Part shown: positions 51,260-52,068 of the stretch, one piece after another | Layout: the number at the start of each line of letters is the position of its first letter | Numbering within the stretch: the first letter of the stretch is position 1 | DNA from: Alteriqipengyuania abyssalis | GTDB taxonomy: Bacteria; Pseudomonadota; Alphaproteobacteria; Sphingomonadales; Sphingomonadaceae | Assembly: GCF_019857185.1 (NCBI RefSeq) | Contig: NZ_JAHWXP010000001.1 | Location: 744,001-808,000, forward strand | DNA: 64,000 bases | Direction: 5' to 3' | The notes under the pieces: generated by a model | Database searches by the model: none | Seen by the model: only the letters and a program-made list of their open reading frames with translations | What the model was told of the DNA's origin: nothing | Program-made: the position numbers and the translations under genes

Positions 51260-51462
51260 TGAAAGTCGAGGTTTTCGCGGGAGAACATGGCGATACACTG
51301 CTCTTTGCAGGCGATTTCCCCGCGATGCCTCGGATTGGTGAAACAATCTCGAGGGACGCTGGTGGCTATTTCGAGTATTATGACGTGACTGACGTTTGGT
51401 ATCGTCAAGACGGCGAATCTGGTCGGTTCAACGCTTGCGTTTCTGTGAAACTGAACGACTAG
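51259..51462 (+). CDS. 67-residue protein of unknown function
   Basis: 67 aa from the ATG at 51259; a GTG immediately before it (51256) overlaps the ettA stop. The peptide KVEVFAGEHGDTLLFAGDFP onward looks like a compact beta-rich fold ending FNACVSVKLND. Its base composition is less GC-rich than ettA. Function unknown; translation appears coupled to ettA. Confidence 0.6.
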
Positions 51463-51548
51463 CTTGCAGGAGAGTGACGTCCAAAGAAGCCTGATCCCGG
51501 CTCGGGGGCAGGGATAACGTTGGTGGGGGTGTAGCGCCTATCCATCCC

Positions 51549-51579
51549 CGTCGGCCCGTGCTTGACACGGGCCAAGGCT
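51549..51579 (+). repeat. Palindromic repeat copy 1 (31 nt)
   Basis: Stem GGCCCGTG (51553-51560), loop CTTGA, stem CACGGGCC (51566-51573), bounded by CGTC and AAGGCT. It shares 31-nt length, edges and loop with the copies at 51606-51636 and 51989-52019. Confidence 0.85.
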
Positions 51580-51605
51580 TCTTCTGGCTTGGCGGGGAAA
51601 TGGCG

Positions 51606-51636
51606 AGCCTTGGGCCGTGTCGAGCACGGCCCGACG
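51606..51636 (-). repeat. Palindromic repeat copy 2 (31 nt, inverted)
   Basis: Stem arms GGGCCGTG (51612-51619) and CACGGCCC (51625-51632), loop TCGAG. It is inverted with respect to copy 1, with 26 nt between them, and ends 6 nt before the 3' end of the GIY-YIG gene. Confidence 0.85.
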
Positions 51637-51642
51637 ATGTTG

Positions 51643-51954
51643 CTAGGGGTGTGCCTTATCCCCGCCGAACCATACGCCCCACAGGTCTTGCCACTCGGGG
51701 TTCTCCGCCTCGATCAGCGCGAATTTCCATTCGCGACGCCATTTCTTGACCAGTTTCTCGCGGGCGATGGCGGCTTCGATGTCCTCGTGGCGTTCGGCGT
51801 AGACCAACAGGGTCTTGCCGTTTTGCGCGACGTGATCCGAGCCCTCGCCATTGCGGTGCTGGTGTACCCGCGCGATCAGGTCTGCGGTCACACCGACATA
51901 CACCCCGCCGCGATAGCGGTTGGCCATGATGTATACCCAGCCGCCCTTTTCCAT
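51643..51954 (-). CDS. GIY-YIG nuclease domain protein
   Basis: 103 aa, little more than a single GIY-YIG domain. Conserved elements: VYIM (first tyrosine motif), GVYVG (second), an Arg in LIARVHQHRNG, and the metal-binding Glu in AIAREKLVKKWRREWKFALI. Single-domain proteins of this kind (UPF0213-like) have no known cellular role. Homing endonucleases and repair nucleases share the fold. It lies between palindromic repeats (copies 1/2 downstream, copy 3 upstream), suggesting a functional link. Confidence 0.9.
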   Translation of the reverse strand: MEKGGWVYIMANRYRGGVYVGVTADLIARVHQHRNGEGSDHVAQNGKTLLVYAERHEDIEAAIAREKLVKKWRREWKFALIEAENPEWQDLWGVWFGGDKAHP

Positions 51955-51988
51955 GCCTGTGTCATGCCGGAGCGCGTGGCTGAAGAGA

Positions 51989-52019
51989 AGCCTTGGCCCG
52001 GATCAAGTCCGGGCCGACG
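51989..52019 (-). repeat. Palindromic repeat copy 3 (31 nt, inverted)
   Basis: Stem GGCCCGGA (51995-52002), loop TCAAG, stem TCCGGGCC (52008-52015). Read on the minus strand, it equals copy 1 except for four stem bases that change in complementary pairs, and the identity continues four bases past the 31 nt (TTCT). It lies 35 nt upstream of the GIY-YIG start. Confidence 0.85.
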
Positions 52020-52068
52020 AGATGGTGAGACCTTGCCCCCGTCCCTCCCCTCCGCTAACCAGCGCCCG

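Follow-up and report, generated by a model that had tools for sequence, protein, structure and literature searches.

Small GIY-YIG nuclease genes paired with CGTC-tagged REPs form candidate mobile units in bacteria

A clade of small GIY-YIG nucleases is paired with CGTC-tagged REPs, and the pairing is real and broad, extending over several phyla. CGTC-tagged REPs were described in 2013 by Di Nocera et al. as repeats that predominate in Alphaproteobacteria and form a superfamily including Neisseria dRS3 and Rickettsia RPE-4/RPE-6; in that paper they "apparently lack a dedicated transposase" (PMC3733652), whereas at the loci reported below a GIY-YIG gene sits between the repeats. Judging from sequence, we consider it probable (about 0.65) that the gene and its flanking palindromes make up a minimal mobile unit, similar to a REPtron, in which the nuclease would act on the palindromic ends.

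The locus lies in a 64,000-nucleotide stretch of the Alteriqipengyuania abyssalis genome (hereafter the window and the home genome), and its features are given in Table 1. A degenerate pattern allowing up to 3 mismatches finds exactly three palindromes in the window and none in 100 dinucleotide-preserving shuffles of it; these 31-nt elements, and the GIY-YIG gene as well, are where a preliminary description had placed them. Also as described there, copies 1 and 2 are separated by 26 nt on the 3' side of the gene, and the stems, compared tag-first, vary at three positions, each compensated on the opposite arm. Copy 3 does lie upstream of the start codon, but its distance from the ATG at 51954 is 34 nt and not the 35 nt first claimed. 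The outermost CGTC tags point outward at both ends of the unit, the tag of copy 2 is turned toward the 3' end of the gene, and the inverted repeat spanning the gene scores 24.5, against 7.0-9.5 for shifted controls (locus L036).

Table 1 Features of the proposed unit in window coordinates; stems (8 bp) and loops (5 nt) are written tag-first
Feature	Position	Strand	Description
Proposed 471-bp unit	51549..52019	-	CGTC-tagged REP pair, GIY-YIG gene and CGTC-tagged REP
REP copy 1	51549..51579	+	Left end, CGTC outward; stem GGCCCGTG/CACGGGCC, loop CTTGA
REP copy 2	51606..51636	-	Head-to-head with copy 1; stem GGGCCGTG/CACGGCCC, loop CTCGA
GIY-YIG nuclease gene	51643..51954	-	103 aa, single domain, PF01541 E 1e-11
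REP copy 3	51989..52019	-	Right end, CGTC outward; stem GGCCCGGA/TCCGGGCC, loop CTTGA

The gene product matches the Pfam GIY-YIG model above its cut-off and no other Pfam domain, and no NCBIfam model matches it at E <= 0.001. Y19, R29 and E66, which we take to be the active-site residues, are invariant across 25 homologs in an alignment of the family. An AlphaFold2 prediction has a mean pLDDT of 91.1 and a pTM of 0.83. The nearest solved structures are the UPF0213 proteins 1zg2 and 1ywl, followed by UvrC when ranked by sequence and by Slx1 and UvrC when ranked by fold; the fold matches to UPF0213, Slx1 and UvrC do not decide the function of the nuclease. The gene stands free between its neighbors.

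By their sequence, the window palindromes are CGTC-tagged REPs. The published repeats carry an unpaired CGTC or TGTC tag at one end, a stem of 8-9 bp and a loop of 4-5 nt, and all three window copies have CGTC, 8 bp and 5 nt; head-to-head pairs and the CTTGA and GAAG loop types are likewise common to the published and the present repeats. Two traits differ. A-T pairs at stem positions 1-2 are almost invariable and CCA is the commonest tail according to PMC3733652, whereas the window stems start GG and the copies end CCAAGGCT, the two C's of which are paired, with AAGGCT following the stem. Both published traits fit most of the other flanking repeats better than the window copies. In all, 117 distinct flanking repeats with a CGTC or TGTC tag were collected with a search pattern that itself included the tag. 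At a Neisseria gonorrhoeae locus (L301), the arms flanking the nuclease gene fit the dRS3 pattern, given as ATTCCC(N8)GGGAAT in PMC3898611.

Each locus was given the score of its strongest inverted repeat that has one arm in the sequence preceding the nuclease domain and the other in the sequence following it, with shifted positions at the same locus as controls, using either 200-nt windows and a score of at least 14 or 250-nt windows and a score of at least 15. With the first setting, 49/54 loci from relatives are flanked, compared with 2/426 shifted controls, as are 18/29 loci of an alphaproteobacterial class sample taken at one locus per genome (controls 5/221). The second setting gives 48/54 for the relatives (controls 1/213), 51/88 for the class sample (controls 4/346; 89 loci were fetched, some genomes giving several, and one was dropped at a contig edge), 18/29 for other Pseudomonadota (controls 1/112) and 13/14 for 14 further alphaproteobacterial loci (controls 0/54). 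Among named GTDB genomes from several phyla, many of them metagenome bins, 57/76 loci are flanked compared with 1/281 controls, these being the best 80 of 570 confirmed matches less 4 at contig edges; in the same best 80 of 570, one or both flanks carry a CGTC/TGTC hairpin no more than 250 nt away at 73/76 loci and at 43/281 controls. Flanked loci scoring at least 15 include Rhodanobacter, Xanthomonas, Neisseria, Nitrospira, Deltaproteobacteria, Planctomycetes and Elusimicrobia. The preliminary description had likened the layout to that of REP and RAYT with a GIY-YIG enzyme instead, and had asked whether such genes are flanked beyond chance; both points are borne out by these counts, although some loci are non-independent, given that congeners share orthologous units and L230/L270 look like an assembly duplicate. 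As a side observation, 16 of the 17 analysable loci among L352-L370, which lie on contigs classed as viral, are of type A (CGTC flanks).

Outward tags occur on both sides at 35/54 loci from relatives (0/213 shifted controls) and at 30/88 class-sample loci (2/346), and in the relatives the 100-nt bins adjoining the gene contain 0.61 and 0.57 outward tagged hairpins per locus, compared with 0 to 0.04 per bin and orientation more than 400 nt away. Of 30 ParE toxin genes from the same class, none is flanked at the 250-nt setting, none has outward REPs on both sides and one has a hairpin on both sides. Seven loci that we take, from their motifs, to be UPF0213/YhbQ-like also lack a spanning inverted repeat at that setting (0/7). 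Flanking varies with the profile score, at 174/246 loci with at least 100 bits, 22/27 at 60-100 bits and 1/7 below 60. Among 19 GIY-YIG genes matching the profile weakly (20 taken, one dropped at a contig edge), 10 have a spanning inverted repeat, in 9 cases of the kind TCAT..TGAG...TCGA and not a CGTC hairpin.

A second GIY-YIG clade is linked to a second, different palindrome. On a tree of 286 nuclease domains, labeled as 180 type A, 15 type B, 25 with an untagged inverted repeat, 33 with a one-sided REP and 33 with none, the palindrome type changes between A and B twice, compared with a mean of 14.6 and a minimum of 12 in 300 shuffles; the B motif and the UPF0213-like labels were set after the sequences had been inspected, and the B label is doubtful for L080 and L372. 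When the proteins are clustered at 80% identity, 240 of the 286 domains remain, namely 142 A, 12 B, 24 with an inverted repeat only, 29 one-sided and 33 with none. Within single loci, 45 of the 47 with at least two strictly defined REPs show a single loop class. Along the tree, loop class changes 15 times over 95 labeled loci, compared with 27.4 times when shuffled (minimum 20 in 500 shuffles), and 11 times over the 58 class-sample loci, compared with a shuffled mean of 15.5 and a minimum of 11. The latter value equals the shuffled minimum, and loop class alone is therefore a modest tracer.

A PF01541 search finds seven GIY-YIG genes in the home genome, one of which, a 661-aa frame, is taken to be UvrC and is not matched by the profile of the small nucleases. 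All six small genes are bounded by inverted palindromes, the subtype of which differs from gene to gene. The core CCGGACTTGATCCGG is dispersed in 21 copies, and its degenerate form occurs as six inverted pairs 57-60 nt apart. Since the loose core pattern gives 44 matches in reversed form as well, palindromic matches alone count. Readable dispersed copies end in CCCGCTT, GGTGCTT, AAGGCT and the like, and such tails are also found beside GIY-YIG genes. The exact subtype of the window is rare, with 2, 2, 4 and 1 copies in four of 23 genomes, one of which (G003) is without the window nuclease type, and its copy number was dropped as a test because four genomes are too few.

Repeat load follows the nuclease across genomes. 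A covariance model built from 46 flanking REPs was run on the 192 alphaproteobacterial genomes that had also been scanned for the nuclease; its counts saturate near 39 owing to a scoring cap, and a strong nuclease match is defined as a best E up to about 3e-29. At least five model hits are found in 39/57 genomes with a strong match and in 16/135 others (odds ratio 16, p 1e-14, with no phylogenetic correction), in 23/40 versus 16/135 when the 17 genomes that supplied training repeats are removed (p 1.5e-8, again uncorrected for phylogeny), and in 2/36 genomes with a weak GIY-YIG match only. The expectation of the preliminary description that repeat abundance follows the gene is thus supported, with exceptions in both directions: the 16 repeat-rich genomes above, and 18 of the 57 strong-nuclease genomes with fewer than five hits, nine of them with zero. 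In one genome (G165, C1:431166-436560 and C1:519633-522011), model hits recur in steps of about 171, 234 and 336 nt, and this regular spacing suggests tandem arrays containing the REP.

These exceptions bear on the alternative that a RAYT or other Y1 enzyme, another transposase or a phage integrase moves the palindromes and that the GIY-YIG gene is a passenger between copies. The repeat-rich genomes without a strong nuclease match would suit it, as would the use of neisserial dRS3 as an integration target by a filamentous phage (PMC3898611), and Y1, present in 44 of the 192 genomes, is weakly associated with repeat-rich genomes overall (19/44 vs 36/148, p 0.02). Within nuclease strata, however, this association is not seen (5/26 vs 11/109, p 0.19; 14/18 vs 25/39, p 0.37), and no Y1 (RAYT-type) transposase was detected in the home genome; a RAYT origin of the repeats is unsupported beyond the weak overall association. 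In addition, the same small nuclease lies between repeats in every nuclease-sampled set, and the ParE genes do not (0/30). We therefore regard a passenger role for the nuclease as unlikely.

Signs of mobility come from paralogous and orthologous copies. In one gammaproteobacterial metagenome bin, two loci (L300/L336) share 88% identity across 413 nt that run from the upstream tag to the downstream tag. Terminal inverted repeats with copies alike from end to end are a trait of insertion sequences and MITEs, shown here by this one pair. A pair in another genome (L052/L077) is 90% identical over 420 nt and runs about 10 nt past each tag. The rplT-pheS junction of the home genome contains a 412-nt unit; in five congeners the aligned flanks are separated by 33-36 nt there, and about 16 nt of home sequence on either side of the unit fails to align too. 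A sixth congener (L223, G006) has a different head-to-head palindrome pair there, CGTCATCGCGAG.../...CGCAATGACG. At the window locus, homology with four congeners lacking the unit restarts at 52031-52032, about 12 nt beyond copy 3; this locus was dropped as an empty site, because its left side is hypervariable and congeners carry other DNA. The ruvB and phoH sites were likewise set aside, as all four relatives without the unit whose intervening DNA was read (two per site) carry other open frames. Among the sites compared, none was a clean empty site with a target duplication, and at three of them species without the unit carry other DNA. The junctions between ettA and its downstream gene, at ruvB and at phoH (window ~51260-51548, L199, L203, L210 and L217) carry different single genes in different species of the genus, like small exchange sites.

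The mobile-unit reading is favored by the flanking of all six small home genes, by flanking across phyla, by the outward tags on both sides at many loci, by the absence of flanking from the ParE and UPF0213-like genes, by the two type changes on the tree, by the correlation with repeat-rich genomes, and by L300/L336 and the rplT-pheS site. Against it count the 33/286 loci without a recognised palindrome and the 33 with a one-sided REP, the gene/repeat exceptions, the modest fit of loop class, the low-copy window subtype, the lack of a clean empty site with a duplication, and the likeness of L052/L077 beyond the tags. The proposed unit consists of an outward CGTC REP at each end and a single GIY-YIG nuclease gene. 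The palindrome, extruded as a hairpin or cruciform, would be bound by the nuclease and cut near the tag, after which host replication or repair would place copies of the whole unit or of its ends elsewhere. Dispersed REPs and head-to-head pairs in the rest of the genome would be derivatives without a gene that depend on the nuclease in trans, in the way proposed for REPINs and RAYTs. Because GIY-YIG enzymes are hydrolytic, a cut-and-copy or homing-like route seems likelier than classical strand transfer. Binding, cleavage and mobilisation by the nuclease are inferred. Its recurrent position between two copies of the repeat makes the small GIY-YIG nuclease a strong candidate for the missing enzyme spreading CGTC REPs. 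For the wider proposal, that minimal transposable elements widespread in Pseudomonadota and several other phyla, with CGTC REP ends and a GIY-YIG nuclease (about 100 residues) as their only gene, generated the CGTC superfamily including dRS3, and that a sister clade generated the CATCCTGAG...TCGAAGGATG palindromes, we see even odds.

The nuclease might instead be a host guard that removes or resolves REP hairpins and cruciforms, limiting the repeats and being kept near them by linkage or selection. Slx1, a processor of branched DNA, is among the closest folds, and a cognate pairing of nuclease and palindrome would also suit a processing enzyme. Yet a guard acting in trans would have no need of palindromes flanking its own gene, the unit occupies orthologous sites in some genomes and not in others, one assembly has it duplicated from tag to tag, and repeats are more numerous, not fewer, in genomes with the nuclease, which together make a guard role improbable.

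Pairing in the repeats themselves is extensive, as 98.1% of cells are paired among the 46 flanking repeats and 73 are double-changed, compared with 17.1 when shuffled, but we do not count this as proof because the repeats had been selected for pairing. In a small set of 20 repeats picked without a pairing rule, G-U pairs (5) are not in excess over A-C mismatches (4), and there is thus no sign of one-strand RNA selection. It is very improbable that the palindromes serve an otherwise ordinary small gene as terminators or mRNA-stability hairpins: the hairpins are stable and REPs lie mostly downstream of coding regions (PMC3733652), but copy 3 sits a short way upstream of the start codon, the loop class is the same on both sides at 45/47 loci, ParE and UPF0213-like GIY-YIG genes lack the arrangement, and the small set of 20 shows the G-U count just given.

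The proposed mobile unit resembles the REP-RAYT system (REPtron; REPIN) in having a small enzyme gene within inverted REPs, dispersed non-coding copies and subtype-specific pairing, and differs in its enzyme and tag, a HUH tyrosine transposase (Y1) and GTAG in REP-RAYT compared with GIY-YIG and CGTC here. UPF0213/YhbQ-like proteins (1zg2, 1ywl) are, like the present nucleases, single-domain proteins of about 100 aa, but the seven loci assigned to them by motif are without flanking inverted repeats, in contrast to the present clade. With GIY-YIG homing endonucleases and Penelope retroelements the unit shares a GIY-YIG nuclease in selfish DNA, but it has palindromic ends, and no intron or reverse transcriptase was seen at the window gene. 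A 2006 survey found no GIY-YIG homing enzymes in Alphaproteobacteria (PMC1564403). Our search of the open-access literature, with preprints and most subscription papers outside its scope, returned no report linking GIY-YIG to REPs or dRS3, and the link is absent from the available passages of PMC3733652, PMC12306157, PMC1564403, PMC6006769, PMC5082802, PMC3898611 and PMC10969869.

With a candidate of about 100 residues that has its own repeat subtype next to it, the question left by the CGTC REP paper of what mobilises these repeats (PMC3733652) becomes directly testable, and the many natural nuclease-repeat pairs offer material for deriving a recognition code. If the mobile-unit reading is true, GIY-YIG nucleases would join the enzymes that drive bacterial repeat families, a source would be suggested for the dRS3 repeats of Neisseria, and the presence of a linked nuclease gene in each of several unrelated-looking palindrome families would be explained. 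DNA mobility driven by a GIY-YIG enzyme, without a known transposase, would then represent a new kind of mobile element.

Two minor observations concern the nuclease genes themselves. Some copies have an in-frame stop (for example L045 and L064), as expected of decaying copies. At one locus (L031, G000 C3:160251-160514), a clade-B GIY-YIG frame runs through the downstream palindrome into the next protein, which has a motif known from JAMM/MPN proteases; the translated repeat would serve as a linker, and 264-aa frames of equal length occur in G001 and G005.
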